This document shows positions 9,249 through 14,260 of a stretch of DNA of 64,000 nt, piece after piece. Position 1 is the first letter of the stretch; each line of letters opens with the position of its first letter. Below the pieces are notes generated by a model that saw nothing but the letters and a program-made list of their open reading frames with translations, was not told the DNA's origin and ran no database searches. A program made the position numbers and the translations under genes. The stretch comes from Pseudotabrizicola formosa (lineage in GTDB: Bacteria > Pseudomonadota > Alphaproteobacteria > Rhodobacterales > Rhodobacteraceae): NCBI RefSeq assembly GCF_002900965.1, contig NZ_PJOM01000002.1, positions 868,001 to 932,000 on the forward strand. Reading direction: 5' to 3'.

Positions 9249-9949
9249 GCCGGGCGCACCACGCTGAGGTAATAGCCGTAATCGCCGCCATGGCTGCGCC
9301 ACAACTCGATCTCGGCCTGTGTCGCATCCAGCACTTCGGTCAGGGCCGCATCCGCGCCGGGCCGCAACGCCGCTACCCGGTCCGAGAGGGGGCCGTAATA
9401 GGCCTCCCACGCCGCAACACCCAGCCAGCGCGCGCCAAGGATACGGTAGCCTGCGGCTTCGATCCGGGCGATATGGCCCGGCACATCCATCATGCCCGGA
9501 TAATCGCGGTCCCAGAATGCCCGGGCTGCCGGGGCCGGGCGCGGGGTCCGCCACAGACAGTCGGAAAACGCCACAGCGCCCTGCGGCGTCAGATGGGCGC
9601 GCCAAGCCGCCAGTGCGGCACTCACCCCGGGGCCATAGGCGGCGCCTGCCGACCAGATCAGATCATAGGCCCCGTCCGGAGCCAGCATGTCACCGACGCG
9701 CGCCACCACATCGGGCTGCTCGGCCCGGATACGGTCAATGAAGGGCGCGTGCAGGTCCAACCCTTCCAGCCGGGCGGCGGGGCGCTTTGCCCGCAAAAGC
9801 GCAAGATCCGCCCCGGGCCCGCAGCCCGCGTCCAGAATGCGCGCCCGCGCCTCGGTCCGGGCGACATCCAGCGCCCAGCCCAATGACTCTGCATCGCCCG
9901 GCGCCTCGCGCGGCAGGCCGGAATGAACGGTAAAGAACGCATCCGTCAT
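9245..9949 (-). CDS. Class I SAM-dependent methyltransferase
   Basis: Methyltransferase of 234 residues. Motif I, ILDAGCGPGADLALL, is near residue 38 and is followed by the acidic end of strand 2 (LEGLDLHAPFI) and a motif II region (APDGAYDLIWSAGAAYG). The start at 9949 overlaps the cimA stop (ATGA) and its own stop overlaps the next start, so three genes are translationally chained. The substrate is not recognisable. An FFTVHSGLPREAPG N-terminus is typical of a small family of uncharacterised bacterial methyltransferases with this layout. Confidence 0.82.
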   Translation of the reverse strand: MTDAFFTVHSGLPREAPGDAESLGWALDVARTEARARILDAGCGPGADLALLRAKRPAARLEGLDLHAPFIDRIRAEQPDVVARVGDMLAPDGAYDLIWSAGAAYGPGVSAALAAWRAHLTPQGAVAFSDCLWRTPRPAPAARAFWDRDYPGMMDVPGHIARIEAAGYRILGARWLGVAAWEAYYGPLSDRVAALRPGADAALTEVLDATQAEIELWRSHGGDYGYYLSVVRPA

Positions 9950-11580
9950 TCCGCTGCCTCCTGTGCGGGCTGGCCCAGGTCGCGGATCAGCTTCCACTGG
10001 ATCGCATCCAGAAGCGCCTCAAACGACGCATCCACGATGTTGGGGCTCACCCCCACCGTAGACCAGCGCCGGCCCTGATCATCCTCGGAATCGATGATCA
10101 CCCGTGTCACCGCCTCGGTGCCACCTTGCGTGATGCGCACCTTGAAATCGACCAGCTTCATGCTGTCGATACAGTGCTGATAGGGCCCCAGATCCTTGGC
10201 CAGCGCCTTGGCCAGCGCGTTCACCGGGCCACGATCTGTGCCGGTCTCATCCATCGATTCGGAGACCGACAGCATCTTGGCATTGCCGATCTTGACCACC
10301 ACCACCGCCTCGGACAGCGAGATCATCCGGTCATACTTGTTCTTGCGCCGCTCCACCGTCACCCGGTAGCGCTTGACCTCAAAGAACTGCGGGCATTGCC
10401 CCAGGGCGCGCCGCGCCAGCAGCTCAAAGCTGGCCTGCGCGCCGTCATAGGCATAGCCCTGATCCTCGCGCGCCTTCACCTCTTCCAGGATCTGCCCCAG
10501 CCTTGCATCCTTCGGGTCGACCACAATCCCCGCTTGCGCCAGTCGCGTGCGCAGGTTCGACTGCCCGGCCTGATTGCTCATCGGGATGATGCGCTCATTG
10601 CCGGTCACACCGGGCGGCACATGTTCATAGGTGGTGGGGTCTTTCAGGATGGCGCTCGCATGCAGCCCCGCCTTATGGGCAAAGGCACTCGCCCCCACGT
10701 AAGGCGCCGCCCGCAGCGGCACCCGGTTCAGGATGTCATCCAGCATGCGGCTGGTTTTCAGCAGCCCCGCCATGGCCTCCGGCGTGACGCCGGTGTCAAA
10801 CCGGCTGGCATAGGGCTCCTTGAGCAACAGCGTCGGGATCAGCGACACAAGGTTCGCATTGCCGCATCGCTCGCCCAGGCCATTGAGCGTGCCCTGCACC
10901 TGCCGCACCCCGGCATCCACCGCCGCCAGCGAACAGGCCACCGCCATGCCGGTATCATCATGGCAATGAATGCCCAACCGGTCACCCGGAATGCCGGAGG
11001 CGATCACCTCGGCCACCACCCGGCCCACCTCGGCCGGCAAGGTGCCGCCATTGGTGTCACACAACACAATCCAGCGCGCCCCCGCCTCAAGCGCCGCGCG
11101 CAGACAGTCCAGCGCATAGGCCGGGTTGGCGCGGTAGCCGTCAAAGAAATGCTCGGCATCAAACAACGCCTCGCGCCCCTGCGCCACCACATGCGCAACC
11201 GAGTCCGCAATCGCCGCCCGGTTTTCCTCCAGCGTGCAGCCAAGGGCCGTGGTCACATGAAACTCATGGGTCTTGCCCACCAGACAGACCGCCTTGGTGC
11301 CGGCATCCAGCACCAGCGCCAGCACATCATCATTGCCCGCCGACCGCCCGACCCGCTTGGTCATACCAAAGGCGGTCATCACCGCCCGCAGCTTGGGGGC
11401 CGCCGAGAAGAACTCCGAATCCGTCGGATTGGCCCCCGGCCAGCCGCCCTCGACATAATCCACGCCAAGCCCATCCAGCGCCCGCGCGATCATGACCTTC
11501 TCGGCCACCGAGAACTGCACCCCTTGCGTCTGCTGCCCGTCGCGCAGGGTGGTGTCGTAAAGATACAACCGCTCACGCAT
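9946..11580 (-). CDS. cimA: (R)-citramalate synthase
   Basis: Enzyme of 544 residues of the isopropylmalate/homocitrate synthase family, condensing pyruvate and acetyl-CoA to citramalate as a threonine-independent entry to isoleucine. The N-terminal TIM barrel opens with LYDTTLRDGQQTQGV and carries the metal-binding HCHDDTGMAV. The C-terminal quarter (YRVTVERRKNKYDRM, FKVRITQGGTEAVTRV) is the LeuA-type allosteric domain. The ATG at 11580 has GGAG 6 bases upstream and is preferred to the ATG at 11592. Length and the separate C-terminal domain fit CimA better than LeuA. A repeated hairpin element fills the space upstream. Confidence 0.9.
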   Translation of the reverse strand: MRERLYLYDTTLRDGQQTQGVQFSVAEKVMIARALDGLGVDYVEGGWPGANPTDSEFFSAAPKLRAVMTAFGMTKRVGRSAGNDDVLALVLDAGTKAVCLVGKTHEFHVTTALGCTLEENRAAIADSVAHVVAQGREALFDAEHFFDGYRANPAYALDCLRAALEAGARWIVLCDTNGGTLPAEVGRVVAEVIASGIPGDRLGIHCHDDTGMAVACSLAAVDAGVRQVQGTLNGLGERCGNANLVSLIPTLLLKEPYASRFDTGVTPEAMAGLLKTSRMLDDILNRVPLRAAPYVGASAFAHKAGLHASAILKDPTTYEHVPPGVTGNERIIPMSNQAGQSNLRTRLAQAGIVVDPKDARLGQILEEVKAREDQGYAYDGAQASFELLARRALGQCPQFFEVKRYRVTVERRKNKYDRMISLSEAVVVVKIGNAKMLSVSESMDETGTDRGPVNALAKALAKDLGPYQHCIDSMKLVDFKVRITQGGTEAVTRVIIDSEDDQGRRWSTVGVSPNIVDASFEALLDAIQWKLIRDLGQPAQEAAE

Positions 11581-11590
11581 GACTGGCTCC

Positions 11591-11675
11591 ATTATCTGTT
11601 CTCAAATATCCTCGGGGGGAGTCGCCGCAGGCGACGGGGGGCAGACAGCCCCCCCGAATTTTCGTAGAAAATTCG
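11591..11675. repeat. Dispersed intergenic hairpin element, copy 2
   Basis: On the minus strand this copy runs from just past the cysS stop to just before cimA: a hairpin CGAATTTTC-TAC-GAAAATTCG, then a G/C hairpin with the loop CTGTCTG, then GTCGCC-TGC-GGCGAC, then GAGGATATTTGAGAACAG. The ATATTTG box ends 22 bases before the cimA start. The element therefore occupies the whole intergenic space, acting plausibly as terminator for cysS and 5' untranslated region for cimA. Confidence 0.78.
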
Positions 11676-11676
11676 T

Positions 11677-13098
11677 TCACTTCAACGCCTCCAGCTTGGC
11701 GGGGTCAAAGTTTGGGCCAGGAATAAGTTCGATCTCTGTCTGAGACATCTGCACTTTTACACCTGCATCCGCGAGTTGAGATTTAAGCAAATCGACGGCA
11801 GAAAAATCTTTGGTCGTCTTTGCCTCAGCGCGCAGCGAAATCAGGCGTTGGGTCCAATCGTAAATCTTGGCATCCGCTGCTTTCAGGACACTCTGCATGG
11901 CCTCGAAGCGCTCAAAGGGGATCAGTCCAAGGAAGTCCAGCGTTGATACAAACTCATTCCACTCAGCCTTTCCAAGAAGTCTGTCCACTTCGACAAGTGC
12001 AAGATGAGTGTTAAGGTCATCACTCAAAGCGTCGATGACTTGAGTTGCAACTCTTGTCTTTCGTGCCACCTCAAGATCGGCGAACCGTGACCCGATCATC
12101 AGATAGTCCCGAAGCTTACTCCCCGCCGTGACAGCCTTTTCGCTCGTCCAGTCCATCGGACTGCGGTAATGCGTCATCATAAAGACATAGCGTATCTCTG
12201 CACCCGACGTGTCGTCGTCCAGCAAGTCCCGCACCGTAAAGAAGTTGCCCAAGGACTTGGACATCTTCTTGCCCTCGACCAGCAGCATCTCATTGTGCAG
12301 CCAAGTGCGCGCAAAGCCCTGCGGTTTGCCGGCCGCATCCGCCTCGCAGCCATGGGCGCAGCAGCTTTGCGCGATCTCGTTTTCATGATGCGGGAATTGC
12401 AGGTCCAGGCCCCCGCCGTGAATGTCGAAGGTCTCGCCCAGCAATTCGCGGCTCATGGCCGAGCATTCGATATGCCACCCCGGCCGGCCAAAGCCCCAGG
12501 GGCTCTCCCATCCCGGCACGCCCGGCTCTGACGGCTTCCACAGCACGAAATCCATCGGGTCTTCCTTGAACGGGGCCACCTCGACCCGGGCGCCCGCGAT
12601 CATGTCATCGACCGACCGCCCCGACAGCGCGCCATAACCCGCATAGGACCGCACCCGGAACAGCACATGACCGTTCGCCGCATAGGCATGGCCCTTGGCG
12701 ATCAGCCCATCGATCATCGCGATCATCGCGCCGATATATTCGGTCGCGCGCGGCTCATGATCGGGGCGCAGCGCTCCCAGCGCATCCATATCGGCGTGAT
12801 ACCAGCCGATCGTCTCATCGGTAATGGCGCGGATATCGCGCCCCGTCTCCGCCGCCTTGGCGTTGATCTTGTCATCCACATCCGTAAAGTTGCGCACATA
12901 GGTCACGTGCTCCGCGCCATAGACCTGCCGCAACAGCCGGTAGAGCACATCAAACACCACCACGGGCCGCGCATTGCCCAGATGCGCCCGGTCATAAACC
13001 GTCGGTCCGCAGACATACATCCGGACATTTTCCGCATCAAAGGGGACAAACTCCTCCTTGCGATGGGTCATTGAATTGGTCAGCCTGATCGTCACCAT
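11677..13098 (-). CDS. cysS: Cysteinyl-tRNA synthetase
   Basis: Class I aminoacyl-tRNA synthetase, 473 residues, charging tRNA-Cys. The HIGH-type motif HLGN is at 39-42 and KMSKS at 278-282; the zinc ligands C30, C212, H237 and E241 are visible. The ATG at 13098 follows AAAGGGGACC. Base composition changes inside the gene: from about base 12300 down to the stop (residues from about 266 to the end) hand-counted GC is near 52%, against roughly 65-70% in the first half and neighbours. The reading frame is intact and the C-terminal anticodon-binding region looks complete, so this is a mosaic rather than a broken gene. A Cys-rich leader ORF lies 91 bases upstream. Confidence 0.95.
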
Positions 13099-13189
13099 AT
13101 CCGGTCCCCTTTGCACGGCACATTCCCGGCGCGGGGTCTGGCAACGGTCCTCAATGGGGGGATGTTGACAAGCGCCGCGCGACCAAGGG

Positions 13190-13231
13190 TCAGCGGGGAA
13201 TGCAGCAGCAAATGATGCACATCTTCGTCAT
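13190..13231 (-). CDS. Putative Cys-rich leader peptide of cysS
   Basis: A 13-codon [16 protein letters not shown], with four Cys codons, three of them consecutive (TGC TGC TGC). A strong ribosome-binding site, GGAGGGGCC, sits directly before its ATG. It ends 91 bases upstream of the cysteinyl-tRNA synthetase start on the same strand. The stretch CATTCCC in its last Cys-Ile-Pro codons (13196-13202) is complementary to GGGAATG at 13121-13127, a little upstream of the cysS ribosome-binding site. A run of codons for the amino acid that the downstream enzyme charges is the hallmark of attenuation leaders. No poly-U terminator is evident, so any control would be by RNA refolding or Rho. Regulation is inferred. 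Confidence 0.6.
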
Positions 13232-13402
13232 GGCCCCTCCATAGCGCCGCGCCCGCCCCGCGCCAAGTCCTTTTCGCGCCAAACCTCTTTCGCCTCGGGC
13301 CCCCCTCGCCTCGGGCCCCCTTCCGTATCGGGCGCTTTTCGCGTCACGCCCTTTCCGCGCCTGCCCGATCCTGCCATGGTGGCGCATGACCTCAAAGGTG
13401 CC

Positions 13403-14260
13403 ATGATGCTGCGCGCAGTCTTGCTGATCCTCGCCCTGCTGGCCCCCGCCGCCAGCCTTGCCCAATCCTTGCCAGATCCGTTGTCGGACACGGTCAGCGA
13501 TTTTGCAGGCATCCTGCCGCCGGAGGTCGCGGTGCAACTGACCGATACATTGGCCGCAGGCCGGGCGGAAACCGGGGTGCAGGTGGTGCTGGTCACCATG
13601 GCCCGGATCAGCGACCATGGCGGCGCAGGCCAGCGGATCGAGGATTATGCCAAGGCGCTGTTCAACCACTGGGGCATCGGCGATGCAACGCGCGACGATG
13701 GCATCCTTCTGCTGGTCGCAGTGGAAGACCGCAGCATGCGCATCGCGCTCGGTGCAGGCTATCCGGTGATCTGGGACAATGCCGCACAGCGGGTGATCGA
13801 CAGGCATGTCCTGCCCGACTTCCGCGAGGGTGATTATATCGGCGGGCTTCAGGCCGGCATCCCCGCCACCTTCGATCTGATCGCAAGGCCCTTTGCCGCC
13901 GGGGTGACTCCCCCGCCCGACCCCGCGTCACGCTGGCAAGACCTTGCCCCCTTTGCCATTTTTGCCGCCATCGCCGCCGCGATGATCGGCCTTGCCGCCC
14001 GCCGCAGGCTGGGCGATGCGCTGGTACGCCTGCGCACATGCCCCCGCTGTGGCCGCCGCAGCCTGCGCCGCCTCCGCGAGATCCTGACCGCACCCACCGC
14101 ACAAAGCGCAGGTCAGGGCCTGACGCACACCCAGTGCAGTGCCTGCGGCTGGGACCGGACAGAGCCTGTCACCCTGCCCCGGCGCGCGGCCAGCAAAGGG
14201 TCCGGCGGTGGCTTTGGCGGTGGGTCGTCTTCCGGGGGCGGCGCAACCGGGCGCTGGTAA
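13403..14260 (+). CDS. TPM-domain protein with signal peptide and C-terminal zinc ribbon
   Basis: Exported membrane-anchored protein of about 285 residues. The ATGs at 13403 and 13406 both follow AAAGG; the second has better spacing. An N-terminal signal (LRAVLLILALLAPAASLAQ) precedes a TPM/YgcG domain (DTVSDFAGILPPEV, TGVQVVLVTM, DDGILLLVAVEDRSMRI), then one membrane helix (APFAIFAAIAAAMIGLAA), then two Cys pairs (CPRCG and CSACGW) that could bind zinc, and a Gly/Ser-rich tail. TPM proteins have been linked to membrane protein or photosystem maintenance; the specific role here is unknown. It converges on the ABC-F gene with only 3 bases between stops. Confidence 0.8.
   Translation: MMLRAVLLILALLAPAASLAQSLPDPLSDTVSDFAGILPPEVAVQLTDTLAAGRAETGVQVVLVTMARISDHGGAGQRIEDYAKALFNHWGIGDATRDDGILLLVAVEDRSMRIALGAGYPVIWDNAAQRVIDRHVLPDFREGDYIGGLQAGIPATFDLIARPFAAGVTPPPDPASRWQDLAPFAIFAAIAAAMIGLAARRRLGDALVRLRTCPRCGRRSLRRLREILTAPTAQSAGQGLTHTQCSACGWDRTEPVTLPRRAASKGSGGGFGGGSSSGGGATGRW

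Follow-up and report, generated by a model that had tools for sequence, protein, structure and literature searches.

The stretch of DNA analysed here (the window, 64,000 nucleotides in all) carries a reading frame of 13 codons with a run of cysteine codons ahead of the gene for the enzyme that charges tRNA with cysteine. The question raised by this locus is whether the short frame controls that enzyme, and by which means. We consider it likely that the frame is the leader of Rhodobacterales cysS genes published as the uORFC-8-2 motif (PMC8632094), and that it acts as a ribosome-mediated attenuator.

A cysteine-codon leader ahead of cysS

The leader frame occupies positions 13190 to 13231 of the minus strand, with its ATG at 13231-13229 and its stop codon at 13192-13190. 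It ends 91 nt ahead of the ATG (13098) of cysS, the gene for cysteine--tRNA ligase (11677 to 13098, minus strand; Pfam PF01406; NCBIfam TIGR00435, 414 bits). The next gene on the same strand, after a gap of 84 nt, is the citramalate synthase gene cimA (9946 to 11592, minus strand; NCBIfam TIGR00977, 569.5 bits at a cut-off of 450). The gap between cysS and cimA (11593-11676) contains the inverted repeat CGAATTTTC..GAAAATTCG, then GGGGGGGCTGTCTGCCCCCC and another C-run; it has the look of a repeat and not of a U-run terminator. Codons 8-10 of the leader read TGC TGC TGC. The initial annotation had described the 13-codon frame, its distance from cysS and its Cys run, and letters and coordinates proved right; among the 208 ATG-started frames of 11-16 codons in the window, six contain at least three Cys codons and the leader alone contains at least four. 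That observation is confirmed, while two further parts of the description, a ribosome-binding site and a pairing segment, fail beyond the window (see below). A longer open frame (13190-13807, minus strand, 205 codons from its first start) has the leader as its 3' end. It lies antisense to a plus-strand gene for a TPM-domain protein (13376-14260), and we saw no support for a long protein made from it. An Rfam search at gathering scores returned a tRNA as the only match in the window and no family at the leader.

We compared 209 cysS upstream regions from Rhodobacterales, made up of the window, 79 loci of relatives, 29 further loci and 100 regions from 388 genomes with cysS; some species are present twice, and one locus (L059, same contig as L058) was dropped throughout. 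The criterion used to recognise a leader demands a Cys beyond codon 4 and gives preference to ends resembling TGCTGCATTACCCGCTGA; part of the Cys enrichment in leaders is therefore built in. It was passed by 181 of the regions, compared with 4/209 reverse strands and 17/1045 shuffled regions. One locus with only 20 nt of upstream sequence (L045) was counted as lacking the leader here and in the internal-promoter and cimA counts, and four loci that failed the criterion and have a leader by eye (L112, L157, L174, L186) were treated as leader loci in the internal-promoter count only. All 181 leaders start with ATG and 177 of them have 13-15 codons, both of which the criterion favours. They reduce to 165 distinct leaders for the promoter frequencies and to 164 for the other counts. 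Among these 164, Cys makes up 19.7% of the leader frame and 1.3% and 0.8% of the other two frames, with TGC used 429 times and TGT 14 times. The Cys codons typically are codons 9-11 in the leaders of relatives, and every distinct leader has a Cys at codon -4, -5 or -6 (the criterion itself requires a Cys after codon 4). Codons for the regulated amino acid 4-6 codons ahead of the stop are a feature of trp-type attenuators.

The number of Cys codons per leader varies from 1 to 6, with a single one in 17/164. This bears on the idea that the nascent peptide itself senses a metal or the redox state, rather than tRNA charging, an idea that draws on the Cys-rich composition, the C-terminal position of the cluster and the conserved Ile neighbours. 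A varying Cys number leaves no fixed set of ligands, and the gene behind the leader encodes the Cys charging enzyme; we therefore give peptide sensing hardly any credence.

A covariance model built from 66 relatives with the window left out (L032 was dropped from the building set A2) scored the leader of the window with 84.4 bits (E 1.2e-20); no other place in the window exceeded 15.3 bits. The model matched at E<=0.01 in 268/292 Rhodobacterales genomes, although some of the weak matches may be due to chance. The 80 best relatives of the cysS product come nearly all from named Rhodobacterales genera or from entries labelled 'Rhodobacteraceae/Rhodobacterales bacterium', and the rest are labelled only as Alphaproteobacteria. 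The leader label changed 5-6 times along the CysS tree, so that cysS manages without the leader in several lineages. In Rhodobacter viridis and R. capsulatus (L028, L050) the leader is absent, yet cimA still lies behind cysS.

Probable transcript start, exclusive stems and the tract that follows

We tabulated base frequencies at fixed distances from the A of the leader ATG. In the 165 distinct leaders, T is found in 78% at -35, followed by G in 52% at -34 and G in 60% at -33; T occupies -12 in 56%, A occupies -11 in 63%, and C stands at -1 in 91%. The corresponding elements of the putative leader promoter P1 in the window are TTGGCG (-35, 13261 to 13266, minus strand) and GCTATGG (-10, 13239 to 13245, minus strand), with TA at -12/-11 and C at -1. 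GCTA is a usual -10 sequence in Alphaproteobacteria. A consensus scan for promoters and terminators found nothing here, P1 being of a promoter type outside that scan's coverage. A Shine-Dalgarno (SD) core of 4-6 bases precedes the leader ATG in 5/164 leaders, compared with 8/164 within a control stretch and 96/164 ahead of cysS. Given the fixed distance from promoter to ATG and the lack of a conserved SD, the mRNA probably begins at, or next to, the AUG of the leader, and the upstream frame would in this sense be leaderless. The strong ribosome-binding site noted in the initial annotation is present in the window as GGAGG and, by comparison with the other leaders, is peculiar to it. A second match of the covariance model in the window's own genome (L261:578-707, 25.6 bits) has a similar promoter-to-ATG spacing. 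It was rejected as a Cys leader because it is the start of a gene beginning MNKTLHIIGGGM, perhaps another leaderless gene.

Two stems follow from the end of the leader. Stem 1 pairs an arm ending in GCGGG with the last two codons and the stop plus the base at +1. Swap tests, which used 120 leaders drawn at random from 159 or 158 and ignore kinship among them, gave z -11.7 for stem 1 with 0/2000 permutations as good, the pairing energy being -12.15 kcal/mol with own partners, -11.00 with swapped and -6.67 with shuffled ones. All four pairs of the helix formed by the stop codon and the base at +1 are present in 105/157 leaders (66.9%), compared with 46.1% after swapping. This helix occurs as UGAC/GUCR, UGAA/UUCR, UGAG/CUCR, UGAU/AUCA and UAAC/GUUA, so that all four Watson-Crick types are found at +1. 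In stem 2 the GCGGG arm pairs with a downstream GCCCGC (swap test z -7.3). Four control segment pairs gave z -1.7, -1.7, -0.3 and +2.9. Because both stems use the GCGGG arm they are mutually exclusive, and exclusive stems with a common arm, both passing swap tests, are again a trp-type feature.

The window has its own versions of both stems. The 5' arm of stem 1 (CCGCUGACC, 13188 to 13196, minus strand) covers the last codons and the stop codon and begins 5 nt past the last Cys codon; its 3' arm (GGUCG, a bulged C, GCGG; 13175 to 13184, minus strand) doubles as the 5' arm of stem 2. The resulting stem of -12 kcal/mol, taken by itself, is unexceptional in the window (z -0.97). The 3' arm of stem 2 (CCGCGC, 13129 to 13134, minus strand), located by its likeness to GCCCGC, competes with stem 1 for GCGCGG. 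Stem 2 is weak in the window, with an ensemble probability of 0.18 in the free RNA and of 0 with the leader end masked.

A different pairing had been proposed in the initial annotation, in which CATTCCC in the last leader codons would bind GGGAATG close to the start of cysS, so that a ribosome stalled on the Cys codons would free this region for translation. Both segments are present in the window (13202-13196 and 13127-13121, minus strand) and are complementary over seven pairs. The pairing is not conserved, however. We analysed 158 leaders for this purpose, as for the stem swap, masking and U-tract tests, after dropping five with a distant arm and one without a stem 2 arm. All seven pairs are found in 5/158 leaders against 4.3 expected by swapping, at least six in 29 against 30.6, and the near kin of the window (L002-L005, L013) have five or six of the seven. 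Masking the leader end changed the mean unpaired fraction of the cysS SD in ensemble folding from 0.39 to 0.42, opening it in 23% of the leaders and closing it in 12%. A wider Cys segment does pair with the region before the cysS SD somewhat better than swapped partners (z -3.5), a weak signal in favour of such a switch; overall, we regard translational control through this pairing as very unlikely. The tract after stem 1 likewise pairs with the cysS SD better than swapped (z -4.9). This signal, like that of the Cys segment, lies outside the attenuator model.

The tract after stem 1 (CGCTTGTCAACATCCCCCCAT, 13154 to 13174, minus strand) is U-rich in relatives and weak in the window. At least five T within some 8-nt window of the tract occur in 84/158 leaders, compared with 4.8% in an upstream control, and 48/158 have at least five T in an 8-nt window beginning 0-3 nt past the arm. 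The best 8-nt tract in the window holds three T, and no canonical intrinsic terminator is found in 12950-13450. We thus say that the element works like a trp-type attenuator, without counting the window copy as an established member of that class. With so poor a U-run, termination in the window would have to be weak or depend on Rho, unless a different step takes its place.

Part of the U/C-rich tract doubles as the -35 element in another promoter-like pair. TTTTCA or TTTCCA followed after 15 or 16 nt by GNTA is present in 103/185 leader loci (110 at any spacing from 11 to 19), and with a spacing of always 15 it is found just before cysS in 16/24 loci counted as lacking the leader, one of them truncated; the pair turns up in 6.8% of shuffled sequences when any spacing is allowed. 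As the pattern itself was derived by eye from these loci, the figures are descriptive. Loci without the leader that have such a pair before cysS include L051, L072, L079, L100, L134, L136, L181 and L185, among others. The apparent U-run could accordingly be mainly the -35 box of an internal cysS promoter, with stem 1 acting via pausing, Rho or RNA stability. We judge this rather unlikely, as T-richness in the 8 nt just before the internal -35 is confined to loci that have a leader (48% of 88 vs 24% of 16 without one), which indicates that a leader-specific U tract exists too, and as no second, internal promoter is recognisable in the window. Terminator tract and internal promoter thus seem to overlap in sequence.

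Isoleucine codons, cimA and leaders in other families

Besides Cys, the leaders are rich in Ile. After the start codon, Ile accounts for 27.6%, Cys for 21.3% and Thr for 16.5% of leader residues, compared with 4.1%, 0.9% and 5.5% in four proteins of the window, and Val accounts for 0.5% vs 7.6%. Much the same picture emerges from the codons before -5 (n=1263), where the criterion has no influence, with 27.0% Ile and 0.8% Val. Citramalate synthase, the product of cimA, catalyzes the first step of threonine-independent isoleucine synthesis. Its gene lies directly behind cysS in 93/93 leader loci where the sequence extends more than 900 nt beyond cysS, a set with 78 distinct peptide-gap pairs; the gaps range from -12 to 477 nt, and 18 of them are 12 nt or less or an overlap. 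Among loci counted as lacking the leader, cimA follows cysS in 7/13, one of the seven being the truncated L045. Six genomes have cimA elsewhere and carry no leader at either gene (cimA loci L211-L216; genomes of L051, L100, L081, L079, L072 and L011). The relocated cimA in L211-L216 directly follows a gene that by eye resembles an Rrf2/IscR-type regulator.

Leaders of this kind are not confined to the order. In a sample of the class, the covariance model matched at E<=0.01 in 35/289 genomes, including five from the family to which the window belongs. Fifteen loci were taken from the remaining class matches, and two of these lie just ahead of cysS, reading MSNAHTIFICPIICR and MKTAATIWCICCTIIIS. 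We then drew 84 upstream regions from 271 genomes with cysS outside the order. The choice was non-random and fell mainly on the most similar: L254 and L257 were chosen for their model matches, and G586 and G658 (L331, L324) for sharing the genus of L257. One region was too short and was dropped (L297), and L283 and L254 come from one genome. Scanning the remaining 83 regions (82 genomes, other families) for short ATG frames with at least two Cys and at least 30% Cys plus Ile returned 10 regions, against 0/83 reverse strands and 3/830 shuffles. Three hits (L274, L315, L325) were rejected by eye as out-of-frame pieces of the end of a gltX-like gene. Cys- and Ile-rich leaders before cysS remain in six genomes of four other families (L254, L257, L305, L324, L331, L338), for example MKTAATIWCICCTIIIS and MARICNQCCLIITG, and the published limit to Rhodobacterales therefore looks too narrow. 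These frames stop with TGA, TAG or TAA, and possible hairpins and a U/C-rich tract follow. In the 49 genomes outside the order with downstream sequence, cimA is found behind cysS in 6/6 with a leader vs 20/43 without (Fisher p 0.024), a comparison that is uncorrected for kinship and in which three of the six leader genomes belong to one genus.

It is quite possible, though we would not yet call it probable, that the leader reads two inputs, Cys-tRNA and Ile-tRNA, and controls a cysS-cimA operon. E. coli thrL, which reads Thr and Ile, is a leader with two amino acids. The abundance of Ile and scarcity of Val argue for a second input, also in the codons untouched by the criterion, as does the free use of both ATC and ATT for Ile at -6 to -8. 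So does the position of cimA, inside the order as well as outside it, and the absence of leaders from the genomes in which cimA has moved. Several observations weigh on the other side. At -3, Ile is nearly always ATT (155/161), which looks like a constraint on letters. Codons beginning with A are generally enriched in leaders (Thr 3.0x, Asn 2.0x), and avoidance of structure could explain part of this. Codons -7 and -8 would probably be too far upstream for the usual footprint of a stalled ribosome to reach over stem 1. On the CysS tree, the cysS-cimA order changed twice, both times in lineages without the leader, and with so few changes the link between leader and cimA inside the order is not significant (sign test p 0.5). 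The scan outside the order, moreover, itself demanded Cys plus Ile. As the leader has so far been found only ahead of cysS-cimA wherever the next gene can be read (93/93 and 6/6), control by two amino acids appears a fair reading that is as yet unproven.

A wider proposal is offered here tentatively: that a leaderless Cys and Ile gauge sets the expression of the cysS-cimA unit in Rhodobacterales and in scattered other Alphaproteobacteria, with the internal promoter providing an unregulated floor of cysS in many species. If such a gauge exists, the cysteine charging enzyme would be tied to threonine-independent isoleucine synthesis.

Proposed attenuation at cysS and comparison with known systems

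The best account of the conserved Cys-codon leader is that tRNA charging controls the charging enzyme. Comparison of the loci supports the frame with both its Cys and its Ile codons, a promoter at constant distance, stems 1 and 2 and the place of cimA after cysS, and the steps that would join these elements can be modelled as follows. RNA polymerase would start at or next to the AUG, so that no Shine-Dalgarno sequence would be needed for a ribosome to load at the 5' end. With Cys-tRNA plentiful, the ribosome would reach the stop codon and leave the leader, whereupon the last two codons and the stop would pair with the GGUCG-C-GCGG arm in stem 1, and transcription of cysS-cimA would be reduced at or just past this stem. 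With Cys-tRNA scarce, the ribosome would wait at the Cys codons 4-6 codons ahead of the stop and cover the 5' arm of stem 1, and the polymerase would continue to cysS and, if the two genes are co-transcribed, to cimA. Several of the findings above count against attenuation: the missing canonical terminator, the unexceptional stem 1 and weak stem 2 of the window, the small share of leaders with a U-run right past the arm, the leaders with one Cys, the repeated changes of the leader label on the tree, and the two pairing signals outside the model. The interpretation given in the initial annotation is partly supported, the conserved Cys leader at cysS and its charging-dependent role being the supported parts. 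It was right in kind and wrong in two details, for neither the pairing near the cysS start with the opening of its SD nor the strong ribosome-binding site holds up, and it had already been published.

If attenuation is at work here, the supply of Cys-tRNA is read directly to set the level of cysteinyl-tRNA synthetase across a large bacterial group. The details added here make three further questions testable: whether ribosomes on leaderless mRNA can act as sensors for attenuation outside mycobacteria and the trpL of rhizobia, whether a single short leader can respond to two amino acids that are unrelated, and what keeps cysS and cimA together wherever the leader occurs.

The thrL and ilv leaders of E. 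coli carry codons for two or more amino acids of their pathway and control synthesis genes via canonical terminators. Our leader resembles them in reading, as proposed, more than one amino acid, and differs from them in the type of gene controlled and of terminator.

The initial annotation knew of no described case at cysS in this group, but the leader, with the same mechanism, is already in the literature. As described there, uORFC-8-2 comprises 145 examples exclusively upstream of Rhodobacterales cysS, each with an AUG-started upstream frame and two tandem Cys codons, mostly UGC and usually codons 14-15. It has two stems, the first of which contains the Cys codons, and a U-run taken as a terminator; charging-dependent read-through was proposed (PMC8632094, RNA Biol. 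2021). The window leader agrees with this motif in gene, order, AUG-started frame, tandem UGC and the proposal of ribosome-mediated attenuation. Two stems are supported here as well, with stem 1 of the window beginning past the last Cys codon. The leader may differ in the position of the Cys codons, which are 8-10 in the window, and in the U-run, reported there and weak in the window; it differs in its distribution, exclusive to Rhodobacterales there and extending here to six genomes of four other families. The uORFC-8-2 section of PMC8632094 is silent on Ile codons and cimA as well as on leaderless starts and internal promoters, and our search of the open-licence literature found no other paper with the uORFC-8-2 name or a cysS leader. 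As far as that literature reaches, four points look new: the probable leaderless start, the Ile codons along with cimA, an internal promoter, and leaders in families beyond Rhodobacterales.

Polycysteine upstream frames translated from leaderless mRNA are described for mycobacteria, where they exert Cys-responsive control of the downstream operon (Canestrari 2020, as cited in PMC9031893; PMC4633059). The passages concerned describe a leaderless short frame with a Cys-codon run near its stop, as in our leader. They place it ahead of cysteine-metabolism genes in Actinobacteria, and no kinship between the two is shown; a further account notes no conserved terminator hairpin in Mycobacterium (PMC1262725). 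Another precedent for a leaderless start is trpL of Sinorhizobium meliloti, reported as a 14-codon leader frame with the RNA beginning at its ATG (PMC7298713). That system differs from ours in its Trp codons, in its gene, trpE(G), and in a terminator that releases an sRNA; it shares with the cysS leader an alphaproteobacterial leader frame and, probably, an RNA start at the ATG.
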